Both the position numbers and the translations under genes were made by a program. The notes beneath the pieces are model-generated. The model was not told the origin of the DNA. It made no database searches and saw nothing but the letters and a program-made list of their open reading frames with translations. Of a stretch of DNA of 64,000 nucleotides, positions 8,132-35,072 are shown in pieces. The first letter of the stretch is position 1, and every line of letters starts with the position of its first letter. Source of the stretch: Nocardioides aurantiacus (GTDB lineage Bacteria > Actinomycetota > Actinomycetes > Propionibacteriales > Nocardioidaceae). The stretch covers positions 3,224,001 to 3,288,000 of the forward strand of contig NZ_RKHO01000001.1 of the NCBI RefSeq assembly GCF_003752505.1, read 5' to 3'.

Positions 8132-8175
8132 GCGTCATGCGTCCTCGTCGTCCTGACGACCACCTCGTACGACGC
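8132..8175. repeat. palindromic intergenic repeat, solitary copy (family GCGTCAT...ATGACGC)
   Basis: A 44-bp imperfect palindrome beginning GCGTCATGCG and ending CGTACGACGC. It belongs to the same family as the copies at 33739-33966 and 35028-35072. It lies in the 148-bp gap between the convergent acyl-CoA dehydrogenase and P-loop kinase genes. Confidence 0.65.
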
Positions 8176-8220: not shown

Positions 8221-8234
8221 CCCCCCGGACGTCA

Positions 8235-8792
8235 TCAGGATCGTGGTCTGGAGGCCACGATCGCGATGACGTCCCGGGCGAGGGCAGGGACGTCGACGGG
8301 AGCGGAGGTGTCGACCTCGACGACCGGCCAGCCTCCGGCCAGCGGCGCGCGCGCCTCCGGCGGCCACAGCTCGTCCTCGGGGCGGTCGGCGTCGAAGTGA
8401 CCCGGCCCCTTGGTGGCCGCGCGGGCGGCGTACCGCTCCCGCAGCGTCGGTACGTCGACCCGGCAGTGCACCTCGACGTCCACCCCGAGCTCGCCCAGCT
8501 GCTCGAGCGCCCGGGCCCGGTCGACCCACACGCTGTCCAGCACCCCCGACCGCGCCTCCCGGGCGACAGCCAGCAGCGCCACCACCGCGGCCCGTCCCAG
8601 CGCCCGCGAGATCGCGACGTCCGCCGCCCCCAGGACGTCGACCAGTCCCTGCTTCAGGGTGTCCTTGGCCAGCAGCGGCAGCCCGAGCTCGACCGCGAGC
8701 GCGGCCGCGAGGGTGCTCTTGCCGGAGGCGGGCGGACCGGTGAGGACGACGTACACCCGACCATCCCACCGCGCCGGACCACCGGCGTCCAC
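8235..8792 (-). CDS. AAA-type P-loop kinase-like protein
   Basis: A 185-residue protein with an N-terminal Walker A motif GPPASGKST (about residues 19-27), a Lys-Asp containing LLAKDTLKQGL segment after the first helix and a VDVEVHCRVDVP strand. It resembles small nucleotide/sugar kinase-like NTPases such as the gluconate or chloramphenicol phosphotransferase-like folds. The phosphoryl acceptor is unknown. A GTG at 8756 (VYVVLTGPP...) is an equally plausible start and would remove a low-complexity leader. It faces the PHA operon tail-to-tail and lies downstream of the helicase gene, separated from it by a palindromic element. Confidence 0.75.
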   Translation of the reverse strand: MDAGGPARWDGRVYVVLTGPPASGKSTLAAALAVELGLPLLAKDTLKQGLVDVLGAADVAISRALGRAAVVALLAVAREARSGVLDSVWVDRARALEQLGELGVDVEVHCRVDVPTLRERYAARAATKGPGHFDADRPEDELWPPEARAPLAGGWPVVEVDTSAPVDVPALARDVIAIVASRPRS

Positions 8793-8908: not shown

Positions 8909-11418
8909 TACAGCCGCACCACCCCACCCACGACCAGCACCAGCTCACCGGCGTCGTCGGAGGCGGGGAGGTCGACGGTGGCCGTGATCCGCCAGTCGTG
9001 GTGGCCCTCGGGGTCGGCGAGCACCTGCTGGACCTCCCAGGTCGTCGCCGTCTTCTCGACCTGGAACAGCAGCGGGCTGCGGGCGTCGGCGTCGGTCGCG
9101 ATCCAGGCGTGCTCGTCGAAGTAGGCGACCAGGCCGGCCTCCCAGTCGACGTCGGCGTCGAGCTCCTGCAGGTCGGCGAGGCGCCGCCGGGCCACCAGCT
9201 CGACGCGGCGGAACATCGCGTTGCGCACCAGGACGGTGAAGGCGCGGGTGTTGGCGGTGATCGCCGCCGGCGCGGGCGGCAGCACGTCGGGACCGACCTC
9301 GGCGAGCACGTGGTCGGGGTCGCTGAGCTGCTCCCACTCGTCGAGCAGGCTCGAGTCGGTCTGGCGCACCAGCAGCCCGAGCCACTCCACGATGTCGGTC
9401 AGCTCGTCGGTGCGGACCCGGTCGGGCACGGTCTGGCGCAGGGCGCGGTAGGTGTCGCCGAGGTAGCGCAGCACCAGCCCCTCGGAGCGGGTCAGGCCGT
9501 AGAACGCGACGTACTCCCCGAACGACATCGCCCGCTCGTAGAGGTCGCGCACCACCGACTTCGGCGAGAGCGCGTCCTCGCCGACCCACGGGTGGTGGGC
9601 GCGGTAGAGGCCGAAGGTGTGCTCGAGCAGCTCCTGCAGCGGCTGCGGGTGGGTGACCTCCTCGAGCAGCTCCATCCGCTCGTCGTACTCGATCCCCTCG
9701 GCCTTCATCGCGCCGATCGCCTCGCCCCGCGCCAGGTGCTCCTGCGCGCGCAGCACCGGCCCGGGGTCGTCGAGGGTGGCCTCGATGACCGACAGGATGT
9801 CGAGGGCGTACGTCGCGGACTCGGGGTCGAGGGTGTCCAGCACGTCCAGGGCGTACGCCGAGAGCGGCTGGTTGAGCGCGAAGTCGAGCTGCAGCCCCTC
9901 GGCCAGCCGGACCCGCCGGCCGTCGGGCTCGCGCGGCACCAGCCGCACCACCCCGGCCGCGAGCAGCGAGCGGTGCTGCGCGGCCGCGAGGCGCATCAGC
10001 CGCCGCTGCGAGCGCTCGTCCTCGTGGTTGTCGCGCAGCAGCCGCCGCATCGCCGCCGCCGGGTCGCCCGGCCGGGCGATGACGTTGAGCAGCATCGAGT
10101 GGGTGACCCGCATCCGGGAGACCAGCGGCTCGGGCTCGCCCTCCACGAGTCGGCGGAAGGTGTCCTCGTTCCAGGTCACCTGCCCCTCGGGCGGCTTCTT
10201 GCGCTGCACCCGCTTGAGCTTCTTGGGGTCGTCGCCGGCCTTGGCCACCAACCGGGCGTTCTCCACGACGTGGTCCGGCGCCTGCACCACGACGGTGCCG
10301 GCCGTGTCGTAGCCCGCACGCCCCGCGCGACCGGCGATCTGGTGGAACTCACGCGCCTTGAGCATCCGCTGGCGGCGGCCGTCGTACTTCGTCAGGCCGG
10401 TCAGCACCACCGTCCGGATCGGCACGTTGATGCCGACGCCGAGGGTGTCGGTGCCGCAGATGACCTTGAGCAGGCCGGCCTGGGCGAGCTGCTCGACGAG
10501 GCGGCGGTACTTCGGCAGCATGCCCGCGTGGTGGACCCCGATCCCGGCCTTGAGCAGCCGCGACAGCGTCCGGCCGAAGCCGGGGGCGAACCGGAAGTCG
10601 ACCAGCCGCTCGGCGATCCGGTCCTTCTCCTCGCGGGTCGCGACCTTGACGCTGGTCAGCGCCTGCGCGCGCTCCAGCGCGGATGCCTGCGTGAAGTGGA
10701 CGACGTACGCCGGGGCCTGGTGGGTCGTCAGCAGCTCCTCGATCGTCTCGTGCAGCGGCGTCACGGCCCACTCGTAGGACAGCGGCACCGGCCGCTCGGT
10801 GTGGGTGACCACCGCCGTGGCCCGTCCCGTACGCCGGGTCAGGTCGGCCTCGAAGCGGCTGACGTCGCCCAGCGTCGCGGACATCAGCACGAACTGCGCG
10901 CCGGTGAGCTCCAGCAGCGGCACCTGCCAGGCCCAGCCGCGGTCGGGCTCGGAGTAGTAGTGGAACTCGTCCATCACGACCTGGCCGACGTCGGCCGAGG
11001 ACCCCTCGCGCAGCGCGATGTTGGCCAGCACCTCGGCGGTGCAGCAGATCACCGGGGCCTGCGCGTTGATGGCGGCGTCGCCGGTGAGCATCCCGACGTG
11101 CTCGGGACCGAGCACGTCGACGAGCGCGAAGAACTTCTCCGAGACCAGCGCCTTGATCGGCGCGGTGTAGAACGTCCGGCGGCCCTCGGAGAGCGCGACG
11201 GCGTGCGCCGCCAGAGCGACCAGGCTCTTGCCGGTGCCGGTCGGGGTGGACAGGATCAGGTTGGCCCCGCTGACCAGCTCGATCAGCGACTCCTCCTGCG
11301 CCGGGTAGAGCGTCAGCCCCTGCTCCCCCACCCACGTCGAGAACGCGTCGTACAGCGCATCGGGGTCGGCGGGGACGGGGGCGTCGGGCGAGCCGGGCAG
11401 CAGGTCGAGGAGGCGCAT
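8908..11418 (-). CDS. DEAD/DEAH-box helicase with DUF3516 C-terminal region (Ski2-like)
   Basis: An 836-residue superfamily-2 helicase. It has Walker A STPTGTGKS near residues 55-63, a DEFH box (VVMDEFHYYSEPDRG) as motif II, MSATL as motif III, GVHHAGMLPKYRRLVE and CGTDTLGVGINVPIRTVV in RecA2, and HQIAGRAGRAGYD as motif VI. The roughly 450-residue C-terminal part corresponds to DUF3516, typical of actinobacterial Ski2-like helicases thought to act on RNA or DNA. An open frame extends upstream to 11841 but runs through low-complexity sequence; the ATG giving MRLLDLLPGSP is favoured. Genes for a small basic protein and a DksA-like protein lie upstream on the same strand. Confidence 0.92.
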   Translation of the reverse strand: MRLLDLLPGSPDAPVPADPDALYDAFSTWVGEQGLTLYPAQEESLIELVSGANLILSTPTGTGKSLVALAAHAVALSEGRRTFYTAPIKALVSEKFFALVDVLGPEHVGMLTGDAAINAQAPVICCTAEVLANIALREGSSADVGQVVMDEFHYYSEPDRGWAWQVPLLELTGAQFVLMSATLGDVSRFEADLTRRTGRATAVVTHTERPVPLSYEWAVTPLHETIEELLTTHQAPAYVVHFTQASALERAQALTSVKVATREEKDRIAERLVDFRFAPGFGRTLSRLLKAGIGVHHAGMLPKYRRLVEQLAQAGLLKVICGTDTLGVGINVPIRTVVLTGLTKYDGRRQRMLKAREFHQIAGRAGRAGYDTAGTVVVQAPDHVVENARLVAKAGDDPKKLKRVQRKKPPEGQVTWNEDTFRRLVEGEPEPLVSRMRVTHSMLLNVIARPGDPAAAMRRLLRDNHEDERSQRRLMRLAAAQHRSLLAAGVVRLVPREPDGRRVRLAEGLQLDFALNQPLSAYALDVLDTLDPESATYALDILSVIEATLDDPGPVLRAQEHLARGEAIGAMKAEGIEYDERMELLEEVTHPQPLQELLEHTFGLYRAHHPWVGEDALSPKSVVRDLYERAMSFGEYVAFYGLTRSEGLVLRYLGDTYRALRQTVPDRVRTDELTDIVEWLGLLVRQTDSSLLDEWEQLSDPDHVLAEVGPDVLPPAPAAITANTRAFTVLVRNAMFRRVELVARRRLADLQELDADVDWEAGLVAYFDEHAWIATDADARSPLLFQVEKTATTWEVQQVLADPEGHHDWRITATVDLPASDDAGELVLVVGGVVRL

Positions 11419-11483
11419 CGTGCGTCCAGTCTCCCCGACCCGCGGCCCGGCCGGTGCTGCGGTGGTGCGCTCGACCCCGAGGG

Positions 11484-11675
11484 TCAGCGGCGGCCGCCCA
11501 GCTTGCCGAGCAGGCCGCGCACGCCGCGGCCGATGGCCTCGTCGGAGCTGCGGCGACCGCCGGCGGCCCCGGTGCCGGGTCCCCCGACGCGCCCGGGACC
11601 CGGGGTGCCTCCGGTGCGGCGGCCGCTCGCGGCGCCGCCGGCGACCCTGTTGATGATTCCTCGCAGATTGGCCAT
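11484..11675 (-). CDS. small basic glycine/arginine-rich hypothetical protein
   Basis: A 63-residue protein starting MANLRGIINRVAGG, with a Gly/Pro/Arg-rich middle and a basic GRGVRGLLGKLGGRR end. A good ribosome-binding site (GGGAG, 7 nt before the ATG) supports it. No known domain is recognised. It sits between the DksA-like gene and the helicase, all in the same direction. The amphipathic ends could bind membrane or nucleic acid, but that is speculation. Confidence 0.5.
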   Translation of the reverse strand: MANLRGIINRVAGGAASGRRTGGTPGPGRVGGPGTGAAGGRRSSDEAIGRGVRGLLGKLGGRR

Positions 11676-11759
11676 GACGGTCTCCCTCGTAGTCACCGGG
11701 CCACGTTGCCCGATGAGGTCTCGTGCCCAGGACGCCCGTCTTGATGCATCCGCCCGGCC

Positions 11760-12083
11760 TCAGCGACGGGCGGCGTCGTCCACGCAGAGCACCGCCCACG
11801 GCAGCGCCTCGAGCCGCCCCGCGGGGATCTCCCGACCACACACGTCACAGCGGCCGTAGGAGTCCTCGTCGAGCTTCTCCAGCGCCCGCACGACGTCGGC
11901 CCGGACGCCCTGCAGCTGGTCGTGGACCGCCACCTGCTGCATCCGGTCGATGGCCAGCGACGTCCCCTCGCCGATCCGCTTGCCGAAGGAGATGCCGCCC
12001 GTCTCGGTCGGCGGCCGCTCCATCTCGGTCATCTGCGCGTCGATCTCGGCGAGCTTCTCGGTCAGCGTGCGGCGCGGGTCCAT
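11760..12083 (-). CDS. TraR/DksA-type C4 zinc-finger protein with an altered finger
   Basis: A 107-residue protein of the DksA/TraR class. An N-terminal helical hairpin (TEKLAEIDAQMTEME...VRADVVRALEKLDED) is followed by CDVCGREIPAGRLEALP. The last metal position is altered: the usual CxxC at the end reads CVDD, so only three of four finger cysteines remain. The family binds the RNA polymerase secondary channel or acts as a general transcription factor. The start is the ATG giving MDPRRTL; longer in-frame starts run into sequence antisense to xthA. It is divergent from xthA. Confidence 0.85.
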   Translation of the reverse strand: MDPRRTLTEKLAEIDAQMTEMERPPTETGGISFGKRIGEGTSLAIDRMQQVAVHDQLQGVRADVVRALEKLDEDSYGRCDVCGREIPAGRLEALPWAVLCVDDAARR

Positions 12084-12155
12084 CGGCCCAGCATGCCCTG
12101 CGGTCGCGCCGGGGCAGGGCCGGCGGCGGTCGGTGGCGCGGCATACCCTCGCCCG

Positions 12156-14229: not shown

Positions 14230-16919
<2,690 letters not shown>

Positions 16920-27400: not shown

Positions 27401-27472
27401 GCTCTTCTCCTTCACCGGCAGGTACGTGCCGGACGATCCGTCGTGAAGTGGTGCCGGTCACGGTAGGACGAG

Positions 27473-33738: not shown

Positions 33739-33966
33739 GCGTCGTACGTCCTCGTCGCCCCCCACGACCATGCCGCAGGACGCCTCCAGGGACGTCATAC
33801 GAGGTGGTCGCCCCGACGACCCCGGCGTATGACGCATCGCTGCGTCATACGGGGTGGTCGCCCACGCAGAGCGTCATGCGACCTCGTCGCCCCCACGACC
33901 CCGTCGTACGACGCACGGGCGGACGTCATGCGGAGCGCCTGCCCCGACGACCACCTCGTATGACGC
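33739..33966. repeat. tandem array of about 45-bp palindromic repeats, about 51-bp period
   Basis: Units lie at 33739-33783, 33791-33835, 33842-33869 (left half only), 33871-33914 and 33922-33966. Each full unit starts GCGTCRTRCG or GACGTCATRCG and usually ends CGTAYGACGC, with an inner GGTGGTCG/CGACGACC pair. Spacers are 6-7 bp of unrelated sequence. The array nearly fills the 306-bp gap between the small acidic gene and the AbiEi/DUF559 gene. Further copies lie at 35028 and 8132. Confidence 0.75.
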
Positions 33967-33984
33967 ACCGGTGGGACGGACGGC

Positions 33985-34938
33985 TCAGGAGGCGACTGCG
34001 CCCCCGTCGCTCCAGCCCGCGCGACGCAGCGCCTCCTCCACCTGGTCGAGGAACAGCTCGGGCACCAGACGGAGGCCGAGCACCGGGAGGCGCAGCACCA
34101 CGTCGCCGTCCATCGCGACGGCGTTGTGCCTCACGGCGTCGGCCACGACGTTCTCCACCCAGCCGTGCTGCACCCCGTCGATCTCGAGCACCAGCCCCCA
34201 CCGGACCCAGCGGAAGTCGAGGTAGTAGCTCCCCGAGGACGTACGCCGCAGCACCTGCTGGTCGGGCTCGGGCAGCCCCCGCCCCCGCAACGCGCGGAGC
34301 ACGTCGAGCTCGCCGAGCGACCCGGCACCGCCGGCCAGCTCGAGCACCAGCCCGCCGAGCAGGGCCCGGCGCCGAGCACGCCGGATCCGCAGCAGCTCGG
34401 CCGCCAGCTCCTCGGGCGTGACCAGCCGCTGCTGCACGGCCATCGTCACCACCAGCGTGGCCTGTCGCTCGGTGCGCGCCCACAGACCGGCGCGCACGGC
34501 CGCCACGGCGGTCCGGGTGCGCGGCGGGGACGAGCCCGGCTCGACGTCGCCCGCGTCCCAGCGCCGTGTCTGCCGGATGTCGACCGAGGTGCCGCGGTGC
34601 CGGACGCGGGCGCCGCGTGGCACCGAGACGCGGATGCGCCCCGGGTCGTAGCGGGACAACCCGGCCGCGACCAGCGACGAGTCGCCGTCGAGCACGGCGC
34701 GCGGGCCGCCCTCCAGGACTGCCGACCACAGCCGCGCCAGGTCGGTCAACGGCCCGGTGTGGACGGCGACGCAGTGGCGCCCGACGGACTGCCACCGCTC
34801 GGCCCGCAGCTGCGCGCGCACCTCACCCCGGCTGAACCCGGCGGCGTACAGCTGGGTTCGGCAGAGCACCCCGCCCTGCCGGTCGGCCAGCTCGAGCGCC
34901 AGTCGACGCCGTCGGCGGCGTACCTCCGAGATCTCCAC
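33985..34938 (-). CDS. AbiEi-antitoxin-like N-terminal domain fused to DUF559/Vsr-like nuclease fold
   Basis: A 317-residue protein of a common actinobacterial architecture. Residues about 10-60 (LADRQGGVLCRTQLYAAGFSRGEV...ERWQSVGRHCVAVH) resemble the winged-helix AbiEi-type antitoxin domain. Residues about 210-305 resemble DUF559 (Vsr/restriction-endonuclease fold): YYLDFRWVRWGLVLEIDGVQHG gives Asp, Glu-x-Asp and Gln-His at catalytic positions. No AbiEii toxin partner is adjacent. A palindromic repeat lies 18 bp past its stop and another 90 bp before its start. The function is unknown; DNA or RNA cleavage is inferred from fold only. Confidence 0.72.
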   Translation of the reverse strand: MEISEVRRRRRRLALELADRQGGVLCRTQLYAAGFSRGEVRAQLRAERWQSVGRHCVAVHTGPLTDLARLWSAVLEGGPRAVLDGDSSLVAAGLSRYDPGRIRVSVPRGARVRHRGTSVDIRQTRRWDAGDVEPGSSPPRTRTAVAAVRAGLWARTERQATLVVTMAVQQRLVTPEELAAELLRIRRARRRALLGGLVLELAGGAGSLGELDVLRALRGRGLPEPDQQVLRRTSSGSYYLDFRWVRWGLVLEIDGVQHGWVENVVADAVRHNAVAMDGDVVLRLPVLGLRLVPELFLDQVEEALRRAGWSDGGAVAS

Positions 34939-35027
34939 CGCCGCACCGTGCCGCAGCCGGCCCTGCCGCGAAAGCCCCCGGCCGCGACCTGTGGACGACC
35001 ACGGAGGTGCGGATGGCTCCGCCGCAG

Positions 35028-35072
35028 GACGTCATACAGTGCGGCGGTCCGGACGACCAGCTCGTATGACGC
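35028..35072. repeat. palindromic repeat copy upstream of the AbiEi/DUF559 gene
   Basis: A 45-bp unit starting GACGTCATAC and ending CTCGTATGACGC, a member of the family arrayed at 33739-33966. It lies between the divergent AbiEi/DUF559 and spermidine-synthase-like genes, 27 bp before the latter's start. The rest of this 160-bp gap shows nothing notable. Confidence 0.7.

Follow-up and report, generated by a model that had tools for sequence, protein, structure and literature searches.

REPs are common bacterial repeats, and the BIMEs of enterobacteria are tandem intergenic palindromic arrays that bind gyrase or IHF. In one survey (Di Nocera et al. 2013, PMC3733652), an enzyme is linked only to the GTAG-tagged REPs, and the CGTC-tagged REPs, which seem to have no dedicated transposase, are left without one. 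The CGTC REPs described there (families 1-4) have an 8-9 bp stem, a 4-5 nt loop, a single unpaired tag and a CCA tail, occur mostly in alpha-Proteobacteria and prefer unidirectional and convergent gaps. Among proteins with a Vsr-like or DUF559 domain, Caulobacter VsrA is discussed as a mismatch-repair nuclease in PMC12907096. Our search of the open-access literature (titles and the starts of abstracts of the papers listed) found no link of DUF559 with palindromic or inverted repeats.

The window that we analysed is a stretch of 64,000 nucleotides, positions 3224001-3288000 of the 4.06-Mb single-contig genome of Nocardioides aurantiacus (the host). A preliminary description had reported a family of palindromic repeats in it, in tandem and flanking one gene. 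The copies were confirmed where it had placed them, with four full copies and one half copy in an array, another copy at 35029-35072 and a solitary one at 8132-8175. The features concerned are as follows:

33739-33783, plus strand: palindrome copy A, 45 nt, with a one-base insertion in the core
33792-33835, plus strand: palindrome copy B, 44 bp
33842-33863, plus strand: half copy C, a single arm
33871-33914, plus strand: palindrome copy D, 44 bp
33923-33966, plus strand: palindrome copy E, 44 bp, forming the 3' bracket 18 bp past the end of the nuclease gene
33985-34938, minus strand: candidate cognate nuclease gene, 317 aa, with an AbiEi-like N-terminal part and a DUF559 C-terminal part
35029-35072, plus strand: palindrome copy F, 44 bp, forming the 5' bracket 90 bp ahead of the nuclease start codon
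8132-8175, minus strand: solitary class-1 palindrome, between convergent genes
8229-8272, plus strand: class-2 palindrome, ACGTCATC..GATGACGT, which has the 44-bp architecture of class 1 and adjoins the solitary copy

The starts of successive array members lie 53, 50, 29 and 52 bp apart, the step of 29 bp coming after the half copy. The class-2 palindrome beside the solitary copy had been overlooked. When one mismatch was allowed, CGTCATACG was found 28 times in the window compared with 12.5 expected, a count reached in none of 100 shuffles. A scan of the window with Rfam matched an msiK RNA alone (27401-27459, minus strand, 58.2 bits), leaving the palindromes without an Rfam match.

The gene at 33985-34938 lies between the array at 33739-33966 and copy F at 35029-35072. 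That copies flank one gene had been noticed in the preliminary description, which passed over the gene itself as a likely partner of the repeats. The N-terminal part of its product matched a PADLOC AbiEi model (E 1.2e-16), and Pfam AbiEi_4 matched in five of 12 orthologs; Foldseek returned 6y8q for the same part at E 1e-5, with a poor superposition (TM 0.33). The C-terminal DUF559 part, which we take to be a Vsr-like PD-(D/E)XK nuclease, was present in all 12 orthologs, and residues E210, D241, E252, D254 and H258, invariant in the 12 aligned sequences, are likely to have a catalytic role. The structure model was poor over the DUF559 part, a PDB sequence search gave weak matches only (best E 0.22), and the window protein had no match in the plasmid collection. 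Its three window neighbours are a LacI protein, a small protein without assignment and a spermine-synthase-like protein, among which the PADLOC models identified no AbiEii toxin partner at E up to 0.01 and gave weak mad1/mad2 matches (best 7e-5). In a profile search of 341 genomes, members of the subfamily mostly scored above 300 bits and paralogs below 200, with a few partial copies between them, among the matches listed. Y1_Tnp (PF01797) was absent from the host genome, and five of 14 control genomes were positive; a REP driven by a RAYT is thus unlikely here, given the lack of a Y1_Tnp match in the host and the DUF559 identity of the bracketed gene.

Searches of the host genome indicated that the palindromes belong to a sizeable family. 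The pattern CGTCAT-N30-ATGACG occurred at 27 exact places, compared with none for the reversed control, and a two-ended pattern gave 21 forward and 12 reverse matches (control 0). With spans of 40-50 allowed, elements ended by ACGTCAT/ATGACGT were 44 bp, a few chance matches of other lengths aside. A covariance model, R1, was built from 22 host copies picked by a pattern fixing the ends, and at an E threshold of 0.001 it gave 75 strand matches, which merged to 38 places at about 21 loci, so that many intergenic copies were added to those of the window. In each imperfect palindrome the outer stem is followed by a block of 3 nt, as a rule mismatched, and then by an inner stem and a short core, and the elements stand in short tandem arrays with periods of 49-52 bp, two of them of 62 bp. 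A second sub-class, with the interior ACGTCATCAGGATCGTGG.., occurred at six places in the host genome, mixed among the class-1 copies. Its interior resembles the nuclease brackets in G221 (0.70), G314 (0.67) and G118 (0.63); no bracketed class-2 nuclease was found in the host genome, from which the class-2 enzyme may have been lost.

The preliminary description had also held that the inner arms co-vary as stems. This was not borne out among host copies, as the 22 class-1 copies had both-side changes in two pairs (shuffle mean 2.2), with no excess of covariation and with arms that vary independently; excess covariation was likewise not found in the class-2 copies of the host and G009. The claim did hold across species, for the bracket palindromes described below.

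We classed 22 host sites by hand from the called genes, some weak copies and one class-2 site included, and obtained 14 convergent, five co-directional and three divergent sites. The convergent share (14/22) compared with 27/181 for ordinary gaps, drawn from the rest of the genome with a minimum length of 60 bp and with genes called under slightly stricter settings (binomial p 2.6e-7). One host pair (2891931/2892964), about 1 kb apart, encloses another gene than the nuclease.

R1 matches were present in at least 15 of 24 genomes of the genus and at least 131 of 341 genomes of the host's own family; a class-wide draw gave matches in 16 of 394 genomes, all of them from this family. In the close relative G009, whose flanks were 83-95% identical to those of the host in most alignments, 14 of 18 host loci aligned to stretches that hold copies, with copy numbers changed, and 15 of 19 host-G009 junctions were readable. 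Regarding the other four loci, one shared a class-2 site only, one aligned without a copy, one lay in a 2.5-kb difference and one was not located. These intergenic copies, the tandem arrays, the sites shared with the sister species at different copy numbers and the own-family matches of the class-wide draw support the direction of the earlier proposal that the repeats are REP/BIME-like and specific to this lineage. The gpm-phoU gap, for instance, has two copies in the host and four in G009, and the element was absent from all 14 other genus members with a readable gap, some of which carry other palindromes. In G005, G011 and G012 this gap holds another repeat-like sequence, of the GGTTTCGACA.. 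type, which G011 also has in inverted orientation.

A comparison of G000 with G009 yielded no clean case of one insertion facing an intact empty site, the differences being array changes or larger indels. L295, a site with a copy in G009 only, was rejected as an empty site since the aligned host site keeps the hairpin with a decayed tag, and L258 and L093 were rejected because larger replacements were involved; for L266, L294 and L298, no counterpart was found in the host stretches examined. Two further forms of the repeat were observed. In host locus L496 (118-138 kb), an orthologous palindrome at about 15960-16100 has kept its stem and has decayed tags, and in G007 (L354, 1802-2004) five direct half-sites 31-33 bp apart are followed by full palindromes, forming a tandem array of half units.

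In distant genera, R1 matched pairs of elements separated by about 1 kb. An ortholog of 33985-34938 lay inside each of five such pairs, for whose choice the spacing of about 1-1.2 kb was the sole criterion; another pair with copies about 1 kb apart, in G118 (L357), encloses other genes. To score brackets, we required a 44-bp palindrome with at most one mismatch per 7-nt end within about 260 bp of the gene. Among 50 orthologs (the best 30 returned, the next 14 listed and six taken out of rank, of which G248 had a known nearby match), 47 had palindromes on both sides, one on a single side and two on neither, compared with both-side brackets in none of 16 paralogs. Twelve of the 50 were known beforehand, and 36 of the 38 new ones were bracketed on both sides. 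A further 19 distinct loci, some picked for known flanks, gave 14 with both sides, two with one and three with none, such that five of all 69 distinct ortholog loci have no bracket and three are one-sided. The 50 loci have 26 neighbour settings, the commonest being shared by ten. At both element ends the CGTC tag is followed by AT, and three tag base pairs were unchanged in 47 of 47 brackets, although tag and length are partly built into the bracket scans; the model R1, for which host copies alone had been used, also recovered the bracket pairs of other genera. In Nocardioides albidus (L098), the ortholog at 11232-12116 has palindromes on both sides, and the other loci of the 80 from a fumarase scan, which brought up few close relatives, had neither ortholog nor palindromes in the stretch examined. 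In G008 (L350, 3902-4824), a genome with 44 exact palindromes, the ortholog is split over two frames, by mutation or sequencing error, and is still bracketed.

The nuclease and the palindromes also co-occur across genomes. Six candidates were scored per genome, and a best E up to 1e-60 defined 117 of the 341 genomes as nuclease-positive and 224 as negative. At least one exact palindrome was present in 116 of the 117 positive genomes and in 98 of the 224 negative ones, and the median number of exact copies was 15 (brackets included) with the nuclease and 0 without; the reversed-pattern control matched one genome of 341. Five or more copies were found in 92/117 positive and 30/224 negative genomes (Fisher p 2e-33). 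The association computed within each of three genera was 7/7 versus 3/17 in genus g1 (p 3e-4), 7/10 versus 1/39 in g2 (p 1e-5) and 74/95 versus 23/120 in g18 (p 2e-18), all these p values being given without full phylogenetic correction. Sixteen nuclease-negative genomes hold at least 10 exact copies, and eight positive genomes hold none or one; such exceptions would need loss, incomplete assemblies (four of the 16 are less than 90% complete), missed candidates or another enzyme. Genome G319 has 76 exact palindromes and no ortholog above the paralog range among the matches listed.

Comparisons of the brackets indicated that each nuclease tends to have palindromes of its own. The identity of bracket interiors was 0.73 within a locus and 0.47 between loci (permutation p 5e-4), and the own partner bracket ranked first, ties included, in only 25 of 47 loci. 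Two paralogs in one genome carry different brackets, and in eight genomes with two systems identity was 0.60-0.90 for brackets of the same locus (1-9 pairs each) and 0.18-0.50 for brackets of different loci. The nearest nucleases in other species mostly had similar palindromes, as in G031b-G029 (protein 0.89, palindrome 0.83); G089 (protein 0.60, palindrome 0.23) and G221b (0.66, 0.43) shared no palindrome with the nearest nuclease. Overall, nuclease and palindrome similarity were correlated (Mantel r 0.37, p 2e-4), but only weakly at protein identities under 70% (r 0.12). For seven systems, dispersed copies taken from the palindrome places listed, with G031 left out and a G025 copy kept, matched their own brackets best in 23 of 35 cases (exact permutation p 4e-4). 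An earlier version of this comparison, in which two G031 copies and one G025 copy were dropped and the G031 copies had been sorted by eye, which is circular, gave the own system as the single best match for 17 of 39 among the places listed.

The covariation across species was seen in 47 distinct upstream and 47 distinct downstream brackets, where nine and eight, respectively, of 15 interior pairs beat shuffles that ignore the relatedness of the species (p up to 0.01). Columns 11-38 were CG in 38, GC in six and AT in one of 47 brackets, and columns 13-36 were paired in only 17 and 19 of 47. This covariation fits a hairpin and fits equally a dyad read by a dimer.

Together, these data led us to consider, with a probability of roughly 0.7, a REP-like system in which the palindromes form the non-autonomous, dispersed component and the bracketed AbiEi-DUF559 nuclease serves as the dedicated protein. 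Nuclease and palindromes are linked, they co-occur and they have diverged as cognates; from this we infer that the nuclease mobilises the palindromes. The AbiEi-like part would recognise the species-specific interior of the palindrome and the nuclease domain would cut or nick at the constant CGTC/GACG tag, after which break repair or aberrant replication could spread or duplicate the palindromes. Tandem arrays may grow and shrink through slippage or recombination between units. Copies would be retained at places where a hairpin does no harm or is of use, chiefly at convergent gene ends, where they might act as bidirectional terminators or 3'-end hairpins.

Much of the same evidence bears on other explanations. 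If the AbiEi-like protein were a repressor or a chromosome-binding protein, the brackets would be autoregulatory operators and the scattered copies its other binding sites. The resemblance of the N-terminal part to an AbiEi antitoxin (the PADLOC match and the poorly superposed 6y8q) and the arms that vary independently within the genome, like binding half-sites, are consistent with such a protein. We consider it unlikely, as the host sites lie so often between convergent genes (14/22 versus 27/181) and not at promoters, brackets also stand downstream of the gene, array copy number changes between close species and the acidic residues of the DUF559 part are invariant. The convergent enrichment itself (p 2.6e-7) would be expected if the repeats were only hairpins useful to the host, bidirectional terminators or stabilisers of mRNA 3' ends that arose by ordinary duplication, with the nuclease as a passenger. 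The gpm-phoU gap, which lacks the element in 14/14 readable genus members and has other palindromes in some, and the host site that keeps its stem with a decayed tag agree with a useful hairpin. Yet a terminator requires neither the CGTCAT tag, nor a length of 44 bp, nor co-divergence with one nuclease, and we regard this explanation as slightly less probable again than that of operators.

The matches of PADLOC AbiEi models to the N-terminal part also raise the question of a defence or toxin-antitoxin unit, in which AbiEi-DUF559 would be an anti-phage or addiction nuclease that the palindromes mark or silence. This is the least credible of the explanations and very improbable, in view of the three window neighbours without an AbiEii match, the many dispersed copies per genome and the 26 neighbour pairs in 50 loci. 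The REP-like system with a dedicated nuclease is our preferred reading.

DUF559 loci outside the family were studied in a small, partly related sample of 17 hand-chosen loci, comprising 16 of 38 plasmid-collection records and E. coli ycjD, four of which were chosen after the first twelve had been seen and which include two Sinorhizobium, three Deinococcus and three Azospirillum loci. Matching hairpins of other types, often CCCCTCCC..GGGAGGGG, stood on both sides in 10 of the 17. They were not found on both sides of L469, L457, L459, L460 (Neisseria), L466, L468 and ycjD (L390), and L469 was negative because its annotated start covers hairpins, of which two stand on each side. Controls from the same replicons, available for nine loci, gave bracketing of 8/9 DUF559 genes versus 3/219 other genes, and one of those three directly adjoins a DUF559 gene. 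One hairpin type occurred at no fewer than 40 places in its record, and bracketed units were observed between sufB and sufC (Sphingomonas) and between paaD and paaZ (Deinococcus). A broader speculation, to which we give even odds, is that bacteria at large have a second REP system that does not depend on RAYTs. In it, palindromic repeats with tags other than GTAG would have their missing dedicated enzymes in DUF559 nucleases, every nuclease would have a palindrome of its own, and bracketed units would be able to insert within operons.

In their arrangement, the palindromes of the window resemble enterobacterial BIMEs, since both form tandem intergenic palindromic arrays of variable copy number. 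Generic REP features, namely a short palindrome, many intergenic copies and location at gene 3' ends, were all found here. Like the REP/REPIN-RAYT (TnpA-REP) systems, some features of which are described in PMC3733652, the family consists of short constant-tag palindromes with many intergenic copies at gene 3' ends, in pairs and arrays, and has a dedicated enzyme gene whose bracketing repeats match the dispersed ones. The enzyme is unrelated, AbiEi-DUF559 here and a Y1 HUH transposase there, and the palindromes differ in their length of 44 bp and in having CGTCAT, in place of GTAG, as the tag at each end. With the CGTC REPs, as described in PMC3733652, the family shares many copies and a CGTC tag followed by AT, and differs in its 44-bp length, its tags at both ends, its occurrence in another bacterial family and its bracketed enzyme gene; we keep the two apart because size, tail and single tag do not fit. 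With E. coli YcjD and Caulobacter VsrA (for the latter, PMC12907096), the protein has in common a DUF559 or Vsr-like domain, which differs from that of VsrA in being joined to an AbiEi-like part and associated with palindromes. A bracketed protein that co-evolves with its repeats is a direct, testable enzyme candidate for CGTC-tagged palindromes and a functional lead for DUF559, and the genomes with two systems offer built-in controls of specificity. Taken together, the bracketing of one nuclease gene and its joint evolution with the repeats suggest a partnership of repeat and enzyme like that of the REP-transposase pairs, with an unrelated enzyme.
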